Assembly (NCBI GenBank): GCA_018302605.1
Contig: JAGVZN010000022.1
Span: forward strand, 1-46,566
From: Candidatus Woesearchaeota archaeon
GTDB lineage: Archaea; Nanobdellota; Nanobdellia; Woesearchaeales; GW2011-AR9
DNA length: 46,566 nucleotides
Direction of reading: 5' to 3'
Under the pieces are notes generated by a model. It searched no databases and was not told the DNA's origin. It saw only the letters and a program-made list of their open reading frames with translations. Positions 1 through 16,397 of this stretch are shown piece by piece. Position numbers and translations under genes: made by a program. Each line of letters opens with the position of its first letter. Position 1 is the first letter of the stretch.

Positions 1-96
1 GTAGTTGACAAAAAGATTCTGAAGATTGTGGCTTGGTATGATAACGAATGGGGATACAGCCAACGGATGGTCGACATGATCAAGTGGGTGGGATAG
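1..96 (+). CDS. gap: Glyceraldehyde-3-phosphate dehydrogenase, class I (bacterial type), C-terminal end
   Basis: Only the last 31 codons are in the window; the gene begins upstream. The residues around WYDNEWGYS followed by a short amphipathic helix (QRMVDMIKW) are the signature end of class I GAPDH, the glycolytic NAD-dependent enzyme of bacteria and eukaryotes. Most archaea use a different class II GAPDH, so this form is a bacterial-type gene in an archaeal context. The stop codon is followed after four bases by the next ATG, so the two genes are probably co-transcribed. The family call is firm; nothing can be said about the missing active-site half. Confidence 0.9.
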
Positions 97-1211: not shown

Positions 1212-3104
1212 TCACGCAAAATAGATCTTCTTCCATCCCCGCACTTTGCGCAGGCGCCCGATCAACTCTTGAATCTGTTCTAAACTACGCGGAATGATGA
1301 CAAATGAACATTCCACCAGATTTTCATCCAATAACTTTGCTTTTGCTTCTTTTACTTCAAAGCCGGCAGAGGCGATCGTGTGCAGCATGTCGGCCAGCAA
1401 ACCGCTGCGCTCCTGCGCCTGGATCACAAAACGGATGCGCTGATTAAATGTCTCTTTCCACTGCACGGGAAGCCAGCGCTTTTCTTCTTTTGCCGCGAGA
1501 CGGCAGTCGCGGCGATGCACAGAGATGATCCGGCGCTTGGTGGCAATCCCAATAATCTCTTCTCCCGGCAAGGCGCGGCAGCATTGAGCAAGTTCACACT
1601 GCGCCGTGGGATGTTTTGGCGCCTGGACAAGAATCCCTTGCTCTTCAGTGGCCGCCGGTTTAATTTGGCGGAAATGGAACGGAGAAAGATGTTCAGTTGT
1701 TTTCAGTTCTTTGCGAATCTTCTGCCGGGATTTAGGGGAAGTAACGATTTTGATCCAGCTGCGGCGCGGGCGCTGATTCTTGTTAGTTAAAATATCAATG
1801 ACATCGCCGGAAGCGAGGGGATGCTTCAGCGGCACAAAAATACCGTTAACCCTTCCGCCAACGGCATGATTGCCGACTTCTTCATGGATAGTGTAGGCGA
1901 AATCGAGAAGGACCGCGCCGCGGGGCAGTTCTTTAATATCTCCTTTGGGCGTATAACAGTAGATCGTATCCCCAAAAAGATCAACTTTGATCGTTTCCAA
2001 AAATTCTTTGTTTTCTGTTGTCTTTTGAAGTTCCAAGATGCTTTTGAGCCAGGCCATCTTCTTTTCAAAGATCTGATCGGACTTCAGTCCTTTGTAGCGC
2101 CAATGCGCGGCGAGGCCTTCTTCAGCAAATTCATCCATCTCCGGAGTGCGGATCTGAATTTCCAGATTTCGGCCGTTGGGAAGCAGTACTGCAGTATGGA
2201 TAGAACGGTAGAGGTTTGGTTTGGGATTGGCGATGTAATCTTTCAGCCGCTCTTCTACCGGCTCCAGTTTCTCGTGCAGGAGGCCGAGCAGAGTGTAACA
2301 GTCTTTTTCTGTGGGGACAATAACTCTGATACCCAGGAGATCATACTGCTCATTCAGTTTCACTCCGCGCCCGGTCATCTTCCGGTAAATGCTATAAATG
2401 TGCTTAGAGCGGCCTTTAATCTTAACGATCGGGATCTTCTGCTCAGCGATGGAGTTAATCAGGGTAATGCTCTCTTCGATCAGCTGTTCACGCTGTTCAC
2501 GGGAGTCTTCCAGAAAATCCTGGATCTCTTTGTATTTCCGCGGATTGATCATCTTAAACGCGGCATCTTCTAATCTGACTCTCAATTTTTCTAAACCCAG
2601 GCGATAGGCAAGAGGCGCGTAGATGTCCAGTACTTCGGAAGCAATGCGTCTTTGTTCATTCTCTGGAAAAACGCCGAGCGTAGAAAGATTATCTATTTTA
2701 TTGGCAAGCTTGATCGTAATAATCCGCACATCACTGACGGTGGTAAGAATAATCTTACGCAGCGCTTCGGCGCTGAGCTTGTTGTTCTTGAATTTCAATT
2801 CTTTAAGACCATCGAGGCCTTTCAGCAAGGCAATCACCGATACTCCCAGCTCTCGTTCTACAGAAAGATATTCCTCCGGCGCTAAACCATGAAGCAGGCT
2901 GGCGGCAAGTGTCTCGGCATCAGCATGGAGATCGCAGAGGATCTCGGCGACACGCAGGTTATGCTGAAAAATGCTCTCTCCGGAGAGTCTTTTCTGCAGG
3001 GCAAGATGGGGCGCAGCAAGAGTGATCGCTTTCTGGAGGAGAGTACTATCTTCTGAAGAATAGCCGTTGGCCGGAAGAATGGCGAGAAAAGCAGGGACAT
3101 CCAT
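1212..3104 (-). CDS. rel: Long RelA/SpoT-type (p)ppGpp synthetase with degenerate hydrolase domain
   Basis: This 630-residue protein has the full architecture of long bacterial Rel enzymes: pseudo-HD hydrolase (about 20-180), synthetase (about 225-340), TGS (about 373-440), conserved-cysteine region (CELAQCCRALPGEE, about 503-533) and C-terminal ACT (about 557-630). Synthetase residues are kept: GRSKHIYSIYRK, YDLLGIRVIV, YRSIH and EIQIRT. In the hydrolase domain H48 and H72 remain, but the HD aspartate is G73, the following Glu-Asp is Pro-Glu, and the Asp of KLAD is N135. Hydrolysis of ppGpp is therefore probably lost, leaving a synthetase that makes the alarmone from ATP and GTP/GDP. Archaea usually lack this family. 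A TATA box 25 nt upstream points to a leaderless mRNA. Confidence 0.93.
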   Translation of the reverse strand: MDVPAFLAILPANGYSSEDSTLLQKAITLAAPHLALQKRLSGESIFQHNLRVAEILCDLHADAETLAASLLHGLAPEEYLSVERELGVSVIALLKGLDGLKELKFKNNKLSAEALRKIILTTVSDVRIITIKLANKIDNLSTLGVFPENEQRRIASEVLDIYAPLAYRLGLEKLRVRLEDAAFKMINPRKYKEIQDFLEDSREQREQLIEESITLINSIAEQKIPIVKIKGRSKHIYSIYRKMTGRGVKLNEQYDLLGIRVIVPTEKDCYTLLGLLHEKLEPVEERLKDYIANPKPNLYRSIHTAVLLPNGRNLEIQIRTPEMDEFAEEGLAAHWRYKGLKSDQIFEKKMAWLKSILELQKTTENKEFLETIKVDLFGDTIYCYTPKGDIKELPRGAVLLDFAYTIHEEVGNHAVGGRVNGIFVPLKHPLASGDVIDILTNKNQRPRRSWIKIVTSPKSRQKIRKELKTTEHLSPFHFRQIKPAATEEQGILVQAPKHPTAQCELAQCCRALPGEEIIGIATKRRIISVHRRDCRLAAKEEKRWLPVQWKETFNQRIRFVIQAQERSGLLADMLHTIASAGFEVKEAKAKLLDENLVECSFVIIPRSLEQIQELIGRLRKVRGWKKIYFA

Positions 3105-3181: not shown

Positions 3182-4356
3182 TCATTTTTTTCTCCCCCCA
3201 ATCTCTAACAGCCGGTTATATTTTGCCAATCTCTCACCCCGACAGGGTGCGCCAGCTTTAATCATCCCGCAGCCGAGGGCGACAGCCAGATCAGCGATAA
3301 AAGAATCATTTGTCTCGCCGGAACGATGCGAGACCATCACTTTCCAGCCATTGTCAAATGCCAATGCGGCGGCATCAAGCGCTTCAGTGAGTTCGCCGAT
3401 TGAATCCGCAGAGGATTGGTAACCGTAAGATCATCGCCGACAATCTGGATGCCGGAACGGGCACGTAATTGAGAAAAATGGTGAAGATCATCCTCGTGGA
3501 AAGGATCTTCGATGGAGATCAGTTTGTACGTCCTGATTAATTGAAGATAATATCGAAGCAGCTGTTCTGCGTTACATATTCTTCCATCGAGATGATATTT
3601 TCTTTGCTGGTAAAACGAGGAAGCGGCGCAATCCAAGGCGAGGTCGACCTTTCCGGAATATCCTGCTTTGGCGATAGCTGATTTCACCAGACGCAGAACT
3701 TCTTCCGTCTTCTTCAGCGGCAGTTCAAAACCGCCTTCGTCACCGACGCCGGTAAGACCATATTTTTGCTGGATGATTCCTTTTAAGACATGATAAATTT
3801 CGCTGCCGGCGCGGAGGTTGTCGCGAAAGGACGGGAAACGGGGAACGATCAGGAATTCCTGAATGTTAATCTTGGATGTTGCATGTTTTCCGCCGTTAAC
3901 AACATTAAAATAAGGACGGGGAAGAGCTTGCGCTCGTTTGGCGAGCTGCGGAAATTGAGAAAGGTAATCATGGAGCTCTTTGCCTTTGCTTGCTGCTGCT
4001 GCCCGCGCGCAGGCAAGCGACACGGCCAGGATGGCATTGGCTCCCAGTCTGCGCTTGTCTTTAAACCCATCTTTTTCAATCATCAGCGAGTCTATTTCCC
4101 GTTGGCGAGCCGGGTCGATCCCGACCAGAAGCGGCTTGATGATTTTGTGGATGTTGTCCAACGCTTTCTGCACGCCCAGGCCATGATAACGTTTACCTTT
4201 ATCCCGCAGTTCCTTGGCTTCATGCTTCCCCGTACTCGCTCCTTCGGGAACGGAAGCGATCCCGACAGAATGTTCCGTGATCACCATCGCTTCGATGGTG
4301 GGATGGCCGCGGGAATCGAGGATCTCTCTGGCACGGATGTCGCGGATGGTGGGCAT
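3182..4356 (-). pseudogene. eno: Enolase with internal deletion and frameshift
   Basis: The first frame (4356 down to about 3400) reads as enolase: EILDSRGHPTIEAMV, EGASTGKHEA, GDEGGFE, DCAASSFY, SIEDPFHEDD and GDDLTVTNP. After TNPLRI the frame changes, and [37 protein letters not shown] and [16 protein letters not shown] follow in another frame to a stop at 3182-3184. Compared with enolases, about 18 residues are missing at the junction, equal to a 52-bp deletion, which also explains the frame change. The lost part includes the Lys of LLKxNQ, the catalytic base of 2-phosphoglycerate dehydration. If real, the gene makes no active enolase; an assembly gap is the main alternative. Confidence 0.88.
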
Positions 4357-4722: not shown

Positions 4723-5274
4723 GTGGCTACTCCCAGCAAAGAACTAAATGTTTTGCAATTGATTTTAGAAAATAGTCCATTAAAAGAATGGCATTTTGAA
4801 GAAATAGTTAAAACTGCAAAAGTTACAAGAATAATTGCCAGCAAATGGCTCAAAAAATATGTAAAAGAAAGCTTGCTCAAAAGAATTAAAGAAAAAGGAC
4901 GATTCCCTTATTTTACTGTTGGAAGTAATAATGCTGTTTATTATTCTATGAAACGAATTTACTTATTGGAAGAGCTTCATAAAAGTGGATTATTACCAAA
5001 ATTATTTTCTTTGAAGAATGCTAAAACAATTATTGTTTTTGGAAGCTCCATTAAAGGGGATTGGTATAAAGAATCCGATATTGATCTTTTCATTTACGGG
5101 GATATAGATGAGTTTGACAAAAGTGTTTATGAACTCAAATTGAAGAGGCATATTGAACTGCATATTTTTGAAAATAAAAATGAACTGGAAAAAGTCAAGA
5201 CAGGACTAATCAAAAATGTGATTAATGGCTATATTATAAAAGGTCAAATTCAGGACATTGCTGAGGTGGCATAG
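4723..5274 (+). CDS. MNT-type nucleotidyltransferase with N-terminal winged helix (antitoxin of MNT/HEPN pair)
   Basis: The 183-residue protein starts at GTG, supported by the TATA spacing. Residues 1-75 look like a winged helix-turn-helix (ILENSPLKEWHFEEIVKTA, then ASKWLKKYVKESLLKRI). Residues 100-183 carry the minimal nucleotidyltransferase motif, GSS at about 107 followed by SDIDLFIYGD, with a third acidic position in HIELHIFE. In MNT/HEPN systems this partner AMPylates and neutralises the HEPN ribonuclease. The next gene begins directly after the stop. The pair is visibly more AT-rich and uses more AAA/ATT codons than its neighbours, which suggests transfer. The winged helix may allow autoregulation; that part is inference. 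Confidence 0.85.
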   Translation: MATPSKELNVLQLILENSPLKEWHFEEIVKTAKVTRIIASKWLKKYVKESLLKRIKEKGRFPYFTVGSNNAVYYSMKRIYLLEELHKSGLLPKLFSLKNAKTIIVFGSSIKGDWYKESDIDLFIYGDIDEFDKSVYELKLKRHIELHIFENKNELEKVKTGLIKNVINGYIIKGQIQDIAEVA

Positions 5275-5748
5275 ATGAAAATGATGATTGATGATCTTGA
5301 CAAAACATACAAACTTTGCATGAGAACTGGCAACATCAAAGAAAAAATGGTTGACGTTGAATTAATAAAATCATTGAAAATTGTTGCTGAACAAGGGCTG
5401 ATCTTTATTGCTGCGGCTTCAAAAGAGATTCCTAAGAACAGCACAAATTGGACATTTGTATTTAGGGATTATTATGAATCACTGCGCGGATTAATTGAAG
5501 CATATTTGTTATTTGATGGCATTGGGGCAGACAATCATCAATGTAAAAATGCGTACATCTGTTTTAAGCACTCCGAATTGGAACTTAATTGGGAATTTTT
5601 GGAAATAATCAGATTGAAAAGAAATGCAATTAATTATCGGGGACAATTGTTAAAATATGATGACTGGAAACAGTTCAAGCTTAATTTTGAACTTCATATT
5701 AATGCTTTGAAGAAAGAAATTGAAAAAAAGTTGATTTCTCTGTCATGA
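5275..5748 (+). CDS. HEPN domain protein (toxin of MNT/HEPN pair)
   Basis: This 157-residue, largely helical protein follows the nucleotidyltransferase with no gap. The C-terminal part has EIIRLKRNAINYRGQLL, the R-x4-6-(H/N)-Y type active-site segment of HEPN ribonucleases that are paired with MNT proteins, with Asn where many families have His. An N-terminal helical region with DYYESLRGLIEAYLLFDG matches the first HEPN helices. The likely role is an RNase toxin held in check by AMPylation by the upstream gene. The Asn variant leaves some doubt about nuclease activity. The composition is AT-rich like its partner. Confidence 0.78.
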   Translation: MKMMIDDLDKTYKLCMRTGNIKEKMVDVELIKSLKIVAEQGLIFIAAASKEIPKNSTNWTFVFRDYYESLRGLIEAYLLFDGIGADNHQCKNAYICFKHSELELNWEFLEIIRLKRNAINYRGQLLKYDDWKQFKLNFELHINALKKEIEKKLISLS

Positions 5749-11691: not shown

Positions 11692-14600
11692 TCAGAAAAA
11701 ATTCCCCAACCCCATCTGCTTGCCTTTGCGTAAAAGCTCATCTTCCGTATAGCCGAAGACATTGAAGATTCCGATGACCGCCGGGATGACCTGATGGCCG
11801 ATATAATACTCCGCATCATACGATTTGACATCTTCCCGCAGCTGTGCCCGATCACGGACCAAACCGGAACCAGCGCCGATCACATACTCAATGACCCTGC
11901 CGGGGAAAACCCGTTCGCCTTTTTCTTCCATCCGTTTGGCAACGAGAACATGCGGCCCAAGTGAAGTGTATTGATCAAGTTCACGCGTGATCTGGGTCCT
12001 GATCACCAGTTTGGACAGATCGATTTTTCCTTCTTTCAATTCAGTGATGATCTGTCTAACCTGCGTAAACGCTTCTTCGGCTTTATCTTCAAGCACAAGC
12101 TGTAAGACTTTCTCCTGGATCTCTTTGGCTAAAAACGACCAGTTTCGGCGTATGGTCTCAAAGCCGACGATCTTCAAACTCCCGCTTTCACGCAGCAGCG
12201 CATACTTCTTCTTCGCGCCAAGATCCGTTCCTTTGACTGCGACAAACAGGCCGCGCGGGAAATAACCCTCGCATTCCAATTCCATCTGGCCGGGGAGATC
12301 GACATTGATCTCATCCATGAACTGTTTGGCCTCATCAAGATTTTTTTTACCTAAAAGCAAGAAAACACTATCGGTGTTATGAACGAGCAGAAGGCCTTCC
12401 GCGTCAACAAAATTATGTGCCGTTTCAACTTCGAGATCATAAACCGACCCCTCATAAGATTCTTCTTTTATTTCTTTTATTTTTGCAGCGATATAATTGC
12501 CCCTATCAACTCCTCTTGCTCCTTGAAGGCGTAGTGAAGAAATGGAGGGTTTATCTTTTCGATAACGCCAACCAATGTGTTTTATCTCTTTACCAAAATA
12601 AGTCTTGCCGTGAGTTAGAGATTTAAGTAAATATTGAACCCCGGATGCTAGATCTTTACTTTTCGTATCGAAACGAACAAAGTGGGTATAATATCTCAGA
12701 TCTCTCGTTTTATTTCCATCACCATCTAAATACCCTTTGATAAAAGATTGTCTAATTATCTCCTCTGAAGAATAAATAAATGGGGGGACGGTTTTTCCAC
12801 TACTGCTCTTGCCACAGCCAAAACCATAAACAAATAAAGCAACGATAGGAATTCTCTGGACTCGATAATAGTACATATTCTTGTTTATTCTCTGATCAAA
12901 ATTAACGACGATTTTAAAATTTTCTTGTAAGATCGTGTCAAAATATTGCTTCACTCTCTCAATTAATCCACGATCTTGGGAGCCAAATGACAGAATGCTC
13001 TTCCAACTATTTGTTGTTTTAAGATAACTTGCTGATCCCTCCGCACAATAGAAACCAAGGATCCAGGCTAGTTCTGAATTGAGAGTAAAAAAGCGGGGAA
13101 TTTTCCCCCCTTCACCATGCTTTGTGCCGATGAATTGAAAATCCAGTGAAGGAAGACTTTGTAAACCCATTTTTCGATCATCATGTTGAGAATGGACGTG
13201 ACTGGCCAGAGATCTACTCTGATGACAATAGGGACAAATCCCCCGCCGAGGAGGGAATTGCTTCGTATCTTTGTAAGAGAATATATTTTCAGCAAAGGGA
13301 CCAAACGACATGGTGGCAAGATCAAAAATGTGCCCCGAATGATAATTCTCTTTAACTGAAATGCCCGTGAGTGAAACTAAGCTGTCCCCTTCTTTGAGAG
13401 TTAGAGCATTTACTAATTTTGGTTTACCATCTACTAATTTATAAACGGAATGTTGAGGAGTAACTACTGTTGTGCCATGTGTTGTAATAAATCGTAGAAG
13501 TTTTCCTTTTTTAAGAGAGGAATAACCATGTCGAATGACTTTCGTGATGGGGCTAAAGATTAATTTTGTACCATCAAAAGCGAGAGTCTTGTATTTGTTA
13601 AACTGAAGAGGACTCCCATTTTGGTCTACAAAATCCCCAATAGAAATTAATTCAATTTCATCTTTTTCATTCATCATAAATATCTTTCGATCTGGCGGCA
13701 AACTGTCTCCGTAAACAATGCCAAAGCCATTCTCTTCTGCTTTCTTAATCGTCTTTTGGATATAATGACGGGCGTATGCCGTCGTCGAAGCGGCGCATTC
13801 CAGACAATACCAGCGCGCGCCGAAGAAACCAAGATAACCATAGAAAGCGTTGGCGAGGATCTTCAGCGCATAGGTGCGGGCTTCTAGCACCGAAACATCT
13901 TTTCCCGTCTTCTTCTCTTCTTTTAATTGTTTTTTGACGGCGGTGCGTTTCGTGATCAGATCGTCAAGGACGAGGGGGATGAATTTTTTCTCGCGCTGAC
14001 AGAACCAATATTCTTCTTTTTCCGGAACGTGCTCTTGATCGCGGCAGCAAGAACAGCGAAAAGCCTCCGGGCCGAGATTATGGGCAGTGATGATCGTCGG
14101 GTACAATGAACGGAAATCGAAGACAACAATATCTTGATACAAACCGGGAGTTGGCTGAAAGACGAAAGCGCCTTGGATGGATTCTTCCCTTCGTTCTTCC
14201 ATTTCCGACCCCTCGGCTTTATTGGGAGCAACAACATTGAATTCGATGGCGCGCCGGAGGATGTAATTCTCGACAAGTTTGCTGAAGCGCATGCGCGTGA
14301 CATCGAAAGGAGGAAGACCGACAATAGAGGTAAATTCGAGAATGTCAGACCATAATTTTTCGCAGAGCCGGCGCGTAAGAAGGGCATCGTGAAGGTTATA
14401 AGCACAATACGGGGCAATATTCTCCGGTTCGTTGTCCCAAATACCCGCAAGATTGTCTAAATTGACTTTATGCTTGCGGTAGCCGAGCAATTCTTGGGCG
14501 ACAGCATCAAGAGTGTAGCTATCCGTCTTTAAATTGAGGCCGAAAATCTGTTTGACAAATTTAAGCATGTCCAAATGGAGAATTCCCTTGATTTTCACTT

Positions 14601-15492
14601 CCCCACTGCGGAAACCGCTCCGGGAGAAGACCTGCATCTCTGAACCATCGAGGCCAAGGTCGAGGGGAAGCTGATACTTCGCCGCGCGTGTCTTAAGATA
14701 GGGCAGATCAAAGCCGTCAGAGAAATATCCCGTCAGAATCTCTGGGTTATATTCTTTGATGACCTGTCGGAAACGTTCCAGCATCGCCTGCTCATCAGCG
14801 ACGTGTTCGATATAAGGATATTCGTGGGGGAATTGTTTCCAGGTGATTACTTTCTGGAATTCGAGATTCTGCTCGTCGATTCCGGAGAGCCCGATCATCA
14901 GGATCGGATTTTTTTCGGGATCGATCTCTTTCTTTTCAGCGTAGGTTTCAATATCAACAGCGAGGATTTTCCATTTCGTCGTTCCTGCACCGGGAGTGAT
15001 TTTTTCCGCGAGGAAAAATGATTGGTTGGAAGGCGGTTCATCAATCATCGATGGATCAATGGAATGCCCTTCTACAATCATCTTCTGCAACGGCATGATG
15101 CCCGTGTCTCGCAGATAGCGGTGGACAAAAGGGATGTCTTTTTCAAAACATTCCAACTCCCACTGCTGAAATTCTTTGGAAAACAGAGGAACAGCTTTGG
15201 GGTAGCTGACCGAGACCTGCCAGAATTGCTCTTTCTTGCCGATGTATTCACGCTCGACTTCAATGACACTGCGGACGCGGGCAGTAGTTTGGTTGTCAGT
15301 GATCGTTGCTTTGGTGATCTTTTCTAAGAGTTGTTCTTTGTTTTTTAATGGAACGTGGACATAGAAGAAGGGATAGTGTTCATCAATGACGCAGATCTGC
15401 TTCCCTTCTTCTGTCTTGGCGAAAAGATACATGTAAACTTTGCCGTTCTTGACTTTGTATTCAAAATCGTAGGGATAGCAGATAAGGGGCAT
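11692..15492 (-). CDS. polB: Family B DNA polymerase, interrupted by an intein
   Basis: The replicative/repair polymerase precursor has about 1266 residues, of which 443 are intein, leaving an 823-residue enzyme. Exonuclease motifs are present: DIETYAEK (Exo I), YFSDGFDLPYL (Exo II), YNLHDALLTRRL (Exo III). Polymerase motifs are DFRSLYPTIITAHN (A), LKILANAFYGYLGFFGARWY (B) and YGD...TDSVF (C), the last being the intein insertion point. A cysteine cluster (CSCC...FC) sits after motif A. The start is ATG 15492: the reading frame is open 38 codons further up, but the TATA box is 26 nt before 15492 and MPLICYPYDFEYK matches a normal N-terminus. It is divergent from the HAD gene. Confidence 0.94.
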   Translation of the reverse strand: MPLICYPYDFEYKVKNGKVYMYLFAKTEEGKQICVIDEHYPFFYVHVPLKNKEQLLEKITKATITDNQTTARVRSVIEVEREYIGKKEQFWQVSVSYPKAVPLFSKEFQQWELECFEKDIPFVHRYLRDTGIMPLQKMIVEGHSIDPSMIDEPPSNQSFFLAEKITPGAGTTKWKILAVDIETYAEKKEIDPEKNPILMIGLSGIDEQNLEFQKVITWKQFPHEYPYIEHVADEQAMLERFRQVIKEYNPEILTGYFSDGFDLPYLKTRAAKYQLPLDLGLDGSEMQVFSRSGFRSGEVKIKGILHLDMLKFVKQIFGLNLKTDSYTLDAVAQELLGYRKHKVNLDNLAGIWDNEPENIAPYCAYNLHDALLTRRLCEKLWSDILEFTSIVGLPPFDVTRMRFSKLVENYILRRAIEFNVVAPNKAEGSEMEERREESIQGAFVFQPTPGLYQDIVVFDFRSLYPTIITAHNLGPEAFRCSCCRDQEHVPEKEEYWFCQREKKFIPLVLDDLITKRTAVKKQLKEEKKTGKDVSVLEARTYALKILANAFYGYLGFFGARWYCLECAASTTAYARHYIQKTIKKAEENGFGIVYGDSLPPDRKIFMMNEKDEIELISIGDFVDQNGSPLQFNKYKTLAFDGTKLIFSPITKVIRHGYSSLKKGKLLRFITTHGTTVVTPQHSVYKLVDGKPKLVNALTLKEGDSLVSLTGISVKENYHSGHIFDLATMSFGPFAENIFSYKDTKQFPPRRGICPYCHQSRSLASHVHSQHDDRKMGLQSLPSLDFQFIGTKHGEGGKIPRFFTLNSELAWILGFYCAEGSASYLKTTNSWKSILSFGSQDRGLIERVKQYFDTILQENFKIVVNFDQRINKNMYYYRVQRIPIVALFVYGFGCGKSSSGKTVPPFIYSSEEIIRQSFIKGYLDGDGNKTRDLRYYTHFVRFDTKSKDLASGVQYLLKSLTHGKTYFGKEIKHIGWRYRKDKPSISSLRLQGARGVDRGNYIAAKIKEIKEESYEGSVYDLEVETAHNFVDAEGLLLVHNTDSVFLLLGKKNLDEAKQFMDEINVDLPGQMELECEGYFPRGLFVAVKGTDLGAKKKYALLRESGSLKIVGFETIRRNWSFLAKEIQEKVLQLVLEDKAEEAFTQVRQIITELKEGKIDLSKLVIRTQITRELDQYTSLGPHVLVAKRMEEKGERVFPGRVIEYVIGAGSGLVRDRAQLREDVKSYDAEYYIGHQVIPAVIGIFNVFGYTEDELLRKGKQMGLGNFF
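12376..13704 (-). other. Intein with LAGLIDADG homing endonuclease in polymerase motif C
   Basis: The in-frame 443-residue insert splits YGD/TDSVF exactly between Asp and Thr. It starts with Ser (SLPPDRKIFM) and ends HN before Thr+1, as protein splicing requires. GTTVVTPQHSVY is splicing block B with its TxxH. Two LAGLIDADG-type helices, LAWILGFYCAEGSA and SFIKGYLDGDGNK, mark a homing endonuclease. A CPYC...H...H cluster (about 130 residues in) suggests a small zinc site. VYDLEVETAHNFV is block F and LLLVHN block G. Because the intein breaks the catalytic aspartates, the polymerase can work only after splicing. The insert is more AT-rich than the flanking polymerase, which fits horizontal spread. 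Confidence 0.94.
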
Positions 15493-15513
15493 GGTGATTT
15501 CGGGAGGAAAGTG

Positions 15514-15522
15514 CTTTATAAA
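15514..15522 (-). promoter_or_regulatory. TATA box of polB
   Basis: TTTATAAAG on the minus strand is centred 26 nt before the ATG at 15492, supporting that start. Confidence 0.65.
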
Positions 15523-15537
15523 AGTATGCTCCAAGAT

Positions 15538-15546
15538 GTTTAAATA
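15538..15546 (+). promoter_or_regulatory. TATA box of the HAD gene
   Basis: GTTTAAATA is centred 28 nt before the ATG at 15570, so the ATG at 15549 would lie upstream of the transcript. Confidence 0.6.
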
Positions 15547-15569
15547 GAATGAGGGGGAAAGAGGAAAAA

Positions 15570-16397
15570 ATGAACAAAGACATCCTCTTTCTGGACAAAG
15601 ATTCAACGCTCGGTGACTGGGTATGTGGAGACGGACTCTATCCTGGCGCGAAAGAGTTTCTGCAGCACGAGAGAGAGTGGGGGAGAGAACTGTACATCGT
15701 GACAGCCGCAGGAGAACCGGGAAGAGTGCACCTCGTGGAAGTCGATCATCTGTTAACTGATTATTTTGGCGGTGAGAAGATTGATGCTTCTCGCGAGGGA
15801 TTATATTGCTTTCCTGATGGGACGTTTAGAATTATTTCTGAAGATTATCGAAGTCGTATTTGGACTCTGCCCGATGAAGAGCGAAAACAGCTTTTTGCAG
15901 AAGTAGAGAAGTTATGTGATCAAAACGAGTTTACAATCAGCGACGCTGAAAGAGAATATTTACAAAAACAAATTGATGATTTTTGGAAAAAGTGGGGCGA
16001 CAGCATCAATATTAACACCGGCGAGTCATTTGATGAGACAACACGATATCAGAACCCCTATATCAACGGAGCGCATATGAAAGATCTTCATCTGGCACGA
16101 AGATTAATTTCTCCGCAAGACTTTCAACAGCTGCGAACGGTTATGGTGGGAGATCGGGGAGATGCGGATATCTATTCTTCTGACCCATCCACCCCGCTGG
16201 TAGTCGTTTCAAAACGCGTGAGAGAAGGAGAATGGAATCTTGTTTCCGCTATTGTCGACCTTCTGTTTGACAATCCGGAGAGAATGCTGTGGGAAATGTT
16301 TGATGGGCTGCATACAGCAGAGAACGTCACTTTACAAAATGAGAATTATAAATTTGAACGTAATGAATGGAGTTCAAGATTAGTCTATTGCCCCTAA
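15570..16397 (+). CDS. HAD-superfamily hydrolase
   Basis: The 275-residue protein has the order of HAD phosphatase motifs: DILFLDKDSTLGDW (motif I, DxDxT), YIVTAAGEPGR (motif II, T after hydrophobic strand), and MVGDRGDADIYSSD (motif III/IV, GDxxD). The substrate is unknown. Between motifs I and III there is a helical cap of about 130 residues, containing KQIDDFWKKWGDS. The DKDST nucleophile loop and GDRGDAD resemble polynucleotide-phosphatase and histidinol-phosphatase-like branches more than phosphoserine phosphatases, but this is only a hint. The start at 15570 is chosen from TATA spacing. Confidence 0.8.
   Translation: MNKDILFLDKDSTLGDWVCGDGLYPGAKEFLQHEREWGRELYIVTAAGEPGRVHLVEVDHLLTDYFGGEKIDASREGLYCFPDGTFRIISEDYRSRIWTLPDEERKQLFAEVEKLCDQNEFTISDAEREYLQKQIDDFWKKWGDSININTGESFDETTRYQNPYINGAHMKDLHLARRLISPQDFQQLRTVMVGDRGDADIYSSDPSTPLVVVSKRVREGEWNLVSAIVDLLFDNPERMLWEMFDGLHTAENVTLQNENYKFERNEWSSRLVYCP

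Follow-up and report, generated by a model that had tools for sequence, protein, structure and literature searches.

How an archaeon would clear an alarmone that its only Rel can apparently make and no longer degrade is the question raised by a contig of a Candidatus Woesearchaeota archaeon (JAGVZN010000022.1), the whole 46,566 nucleotides of which are referred to here as the window. The genome to which it belongs (G000; 1.16 Mb in 32 contigs, 90% complete) has Woesearchaeota MAGs as its closest named relatives. Published work has already noted the presence of RelA/SpoT in DPANN, the proteins occurring in 41.7% of Woesearchaeota with a predicted bacterial origin, in a passage that does not take up the state of the hydrolase site (PMC8407392); as of 2021, (p)ppGpp had been detected in no archaeon (PMC8646023). 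The evidence assembled below favors a RelA-like, synthetase-only Rel that probably works together with a trans-acting hydrolase in this Woesearchaeota-like lineage.

The product of the window's rel gene scores 548 bits against TIGR00691, exceeding the cut-off of the model, and among solved structures B. subtilis Rel, the 797-aa RelA in 8fr8 and E. coli RelA lie closest to it. A preliminary description of this DNA credited it with all five domains of long bacterial Rels, and HD, synthetase, TGS, zinc-finger and ACT domains are indeed found (Table 1), with the zinc-finger residues C508, C509, H530 and C534 present in the alignment. An HD and a synthetase domain followed by TGS and ACT define a long RSH, to which class the protein belongs. 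What is missing is the helical domain that long RSHs usually have after TGS and before the zinc finger, although the published HD-SYNTH-TGS-ACT definition does not demand it. In the window Rel, 67 residues separate TGS from the CC motif, compared with 125-153 in E. coli RelA and SpoT and four of five other bacterial Rels, and 81 in the fifth, a Streptomyces plasmid paralogue; the model of the helical domain, RelA_AH_RIS, reaches only E=0.15. This spacing indicates that the domain is absent here, as it is in all 116 archaeal Rels compared, where the TGS-to-zinc-finger stretch measures 58-75 residues. An AlphaFold model of Rel with four sequences as input was confident for the HD part and poor for the remainder (mean pLDDT 62), and a fold search with it, in which Rel/RelA structures came first, added little beyond the sequence comparison.

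Table 1. Features of the rel locus in the window and the candidate hydrolase gene elsewhere in the same genome
Feature	Position	Strand	Extent or context	Basis or remark
rel, long RelA/SpoT homologue	3104..1212	-	630 aa, ATG start	putative pseudo-hydrolase HD, synthetase, TGS, zinc finger, ACT
HD_4 (hydrolase) domain, degenerate	2592..3029	-	residues 26-171 of Rel	Pfam
RelA_SpoT synthetase domain	2088..2414	-	residues 231-339 of Rel	Pfam
TGS domain	1785..1964	-	residues 381-440 of Rel	Pfam
Zinc-finger motif CC...HxxxC	1503..1583	-	residues 508-534 of Rel	alignment
ACT domain (ACT_4)	1236..1436	-	residues 557-623 of Rel	Pfam
Enolase gene	3188..4356	-	immediately upstream of rel, same strand	one frameshift near 3410
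GAPDH C-terminus	1..96	+	convergent with rel	identity read from translation
HD400 in the window's own genome	G000:C30:18899-20086	+	395 aa	family-specific profile

The synthetase site is intact. Residues R232, K234, S238, K242, D255, R260, K295, N297, Y299, H303, E315, Q317 and R319 are all in place and nearly invariant across the Rels with a dead hydrolase site, and the motif preceding Y290 is of the RxKD type (R286-L-K288-D289), so that on the synthetase side the protein looks like a bifunctional Rel[HS]. In most of the dead-site family the stretch YQSLHT reads YRSIHT, the exchanged residue being R300 of the window Rel.

The hydrolase site was read from an alignment with E. coli SpoT, E. coli RelA and five other bacterial Rels (an Azospirillum row that was a wrong-frame ORF was left out), with the numbering and residue roles of S. 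equisimilis Rel. From S. equisimilis to the window Rel, the equivalences are R44=R39, H53=H48, H77=H72, D78=G73, E81=P76, D82=E77, D144=N135 and N148=N139. Thus, the HD motif does read HG (H72-G73), the following acidic pair is lost (P76-E77 in place of E-D) and the KLAD Asp is Asn (N135), as had been noted from the letters alone, and the intact metal site (H, HD, D) and ED pair of a bifunctional Rel[HS] are gone. All 40 Rels of the window's family (f1) are degenerate at this site, in letters that differ between members, which excludes chance or an assembly error: D78 is kept in 1/40, E81 in 2/40 and D144 in 3/40, none keeps the whole set, and the replacements vary by genus (G, S, R, T or K; N, A, S, T or I). 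A basal member (L038, in genome G139) has lost D78 and still has D144, an intermediate state. Other positions of the domain are uniform: the equivalents of R44, H53 and N148 are present in 40/40 family Rels, and the R145 equivalent is K in 40/40. H72 is kept in the window Rel and in 25 of the 40. In active enzymes H53 is a metal ligand, and R39, H48 and N139 of the window Rel are residues that we take to contact or hold the nucleotide. Drift at the catalytic sites combined with fixity at these presumed contact sites leads us to read the HD domain of the family as a regulatory pseudo-hydrolase, for which nucleotide binding is predicted; a purely structural role of the three residues is possible.

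A long Rel occurs in about 115 of the 371 genomes of the phylum sample. Their phylogeny, a check proposed in the preliminary description, was reconstructed from the columns after the HD domain, leaving the hydrolase columns out, with a quick tree carrying SH-aLRT support only and weakly supported deep branches. In this tree 50 dead-site Rels from families f1, f80, f7 and f34 form one clade (SH-aLRT 99), which stands apart from E. coli RelA. Further losses of the hydrolase site outside this clade are seen in f64/f6, f69, f12, f16 and f78, bringing the number of changes in hydrolase state to seven, E. coli RelA counted. The other 54 archaeal Rels have an intact site, with H, HD and D kept and ED nearly always. 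Synthesis under strict selection and hydrolysis discarded several times together argue that these archaea make and use the alarmone. One family genome, G054 (loci L032, L039 and L043), holds a dead f1-type Rel, an intact Rel grouping with the f4/f50 type and a small alarmone hydrolase, reflecting either the acquisition of a second Rel or an error in binning.

If the window Rel is synthetase-only, another protein would have to remove its product. The preliminary description called for a search for clearance enzymes, the outcome of which was divided: no second Rel and no further hydrolase matching the HD_4 model were found in the window's own genome, where the single PF04607 match and the single PF13328 match both lie in the window rel, and a family-specific profile recovered a candidate. 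We refer to this family of HD proteins of about 395 aa as HD400. It was recognized from weak PF13328 matches of 386-431 aa in sister genomes, which proved to be a distinct family with an intact signature; the member in the window's genome scores 21.0 bits against PF13328, whose gathering score of 27.2 is passed by two others (L086 and L087). The signature R..HP..HDxxE..KLADRxHN is invariant in 21/21 aligned proteins, so that all signature residues of (p)ppGpp hydrolases are present, save that either E or D stands as the second acid of the pair. Among PDB relatives, the HD400 profile retrieved Rel hydrolase domains first and MESH1 next. No synthetase domain was matched in HD400, and signature residues without such a domain are what defines a small alarmone hydrolase. 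HD400 resembles these enzymes and MESH1 in its signature and HD_4-related sequence, but is set apart from them by its length, by a longer insert separating HDxxE from KLAD, and by a C-terminal region, about 190 aa long, for which Pfam gives no convincing match. At the loci examined, its neighbors include tatD (15 loci) and rpoL (10 loci), the names being read from translations. Other large HD_4 proteins of 336-465 aa with a partly intact signature occur more widely, in other families, including beside intact Rels (L236-L252, L203-L205).

The distribution of HD400 follows that of the family. The profile search found it in 36/49 family genomes, the window's own included, and in 23/25 of the high-quality ones; 37 genomes reached the threshold, one of them solely through a small hydrolase. 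In the phylum sample, full-length HD400 is present in 27/30 f1 genomes and in 0/341 others. A dead Rel occurs in 40 f1 genomes, of which 31 encode HD400 and another 2 encode a small alarmone hydrolase; neither was found in the remaining 7, of which 5 are 68-83% complete and two (G095 and G387) 92-93%. A genome in which the loss was independent (G066) encodes an HD400-like protein of 427 aa. The plain Fisher p of 3e-10 overstates the association between dead Rel and HD400: one clade supplies most of it, no more than 3 independent contrasts are well supported, and no significance is left once the tree is allowed for. In f80, small alarmone hydrolases occur in 7/8 dead-Rel genomes. In one of these (G336) the small hydrolase gene lies 0.7 kb from the dead rel and shares its strand, with only a glutamine-amidotransferase-like gene between them. 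Extra HD_4 proteins are also present in 17/66 genomes with an intact Rel.

Taken together, this suggests that making and destroying the alarmone are split between two genes in f1 archaea. With its synthetase site intact, the window Rel would use GDP/GTP and ATP to make (p)ppGpp. The N-terminal HD domain, bereft of metal binding and catalysis, would be retained as a folded, nucleotide-contacting regulatory domain, and the TGS, zinc finger and ACT would be retained as sensor or regulatory parts, the C-terminal half presumably reading ribosomes. Removal of the alarmone would fall to HD400 acting in trans through its intact signature, and in f80, another branch of this Rel clade, the stand-alone small alarmone hydrolase would take its place. 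More tentative is a fuller version, possible in our estimation, in which the two proteins form an archaeal stringent-response circuit: the former hydrolase pocket of Rel would serve as a nucleotide-binding allosteric sensor, and the HD400 proteins, as a novel family of large HD hydrolases, would clear the alarmone in trans.

A rather unlikely alternative is that the Rel is synthetase-only and its product is cleared by dilution or by general enzymes such as Nudix hydrolases, HD400 acting on something unrelated. In agreement with it, two Nudix proteins are encoded in the window's own genome, no extra HD_4 protein was seen in the dead-Rel genomes of f7, f34, f69, most of f64, f6, f12 and f78, and G051 (95% complete) keeps HD400 although Rel was not detected there. 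However, Nudix matches occur in 14/14 control genomes, archaea without Rel among them, a ubiquity that makes them uninformative, so they were dropped as evidence; and an unrelated substrate fits poorly with the complete signature of HD400 and with the relatives that its profile retrieves. Much less probable is that the enzyme makes a different pyrophosphorylated nucleotide, (p)ppApp for example. Synthesis of pppApp is reported for an RSH enzyme (PMC6491832), and the YQ to YR exchange that most family members show at position 300 could be taken in favor of this reading, but Y299, E315 and the RxKD motif are the same as in ordinary long Rels.

A hydrolase site that is still active with altered ligands appears more doubtful still. 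The invariance of R39, H48 and N139 and the retention of H72 would suit it, yet the catalytic acid has gone together with two of the four metal ligands, and replacements that differ between genera are unlike a retuned active site. Contamination with bacterial DNA, or a pseudogene in decay, might be suspected from the mainly bacterial occurrence of long RSHs, and the bacterial derivation predicted for DPANN RelA/SpoT in the work cited above (PMC8407392) would agree with a foreign gene. Against this, rel ORFs are full-length or nearly so in 40 family genomes, the synthetase residues are strictly conserved, and the contig is Woesearchaeota-like. Enolase lies within 5 kb upstream of rel on the same strand in 23/42 related loci, often directly adjacent, and GAPDH lies downstream and convergent in 30/42, the window being arranged likewise in both respects. 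This shared neighborhood marks rel as a long-standing resident of the lineage, and the conserved eno-rel-GAPDH synteny together with the full-length ORFs refutes contamination, which would have overturned the original claim, and a pseudogene as well. The frameshift in the window's enolase gene may be a true lesion or an indel introduced in assembly.

The preferred reading, a synthetase-only Rel with a hydrolase in trans, invites comparison with E. coli RelA, the RelA[hS] type of beta- and gammaproteobacteria, which likewise combines synthetase, TGS, zinc finger and ACT with an inactive HD domain and is synthetase-only by sequence. The likeness drawn in the preliminary description is well supported at this level, given intact synthetase residues, clade-wide loss of hydrolase residues and no second Rel. 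The two differ, however, in several respects: the archaeal hydrolase loss is independent on the tree, where E. coli RelA falls among the bacterial Rels (with weak basal support); the window Rel has RxKD in place of the proteobacterial ExDD; it has no helical domain; and the equivalents of R44, H53 and N148, lost in RelA, are kept. Separate origin, motif, architecture and pocket residues thus place it outside the proteobacterial RelA subgroup. Closer in architecture, the missing helical domain included, are the 54 Rel[HS] of other Woesearchaeota-like archaea, which differ in that HD..ED and KLAD are intact. The proposed archaeal partner, unlike SpoT beside RelA, is no second long RSH. A dead-site Rel paired with HD400 would repeat, independently, the division of labor between RelA and SpoT. 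HD400 is a previously unnamed protein with an intact hydrolase site, present in nearly all well-sequenced family members, and together with Rel it provides a concrete two-gene test of archaeal alarmone turnover.

Several other features of the window deserve mention. A 34-bp unit stands twice in tandem at 350-421 with a 97% match and shifts the frame between the ORFs at 101-400 and 363-1166, which are likely one gene. A nucleotidyltransferase gene (Polbeta/NTP_transf_2) at 4723-5748 (+) is followed directly by a small HEPN-partner-like ORF with no Pfam match, and the two possibly form a toxin-antitoxin pair. Finally, a B-family DNA polymerase ORF of 1304 aa at 11692-15606 (-) contains an intein-like insert ending in VHNTDS.
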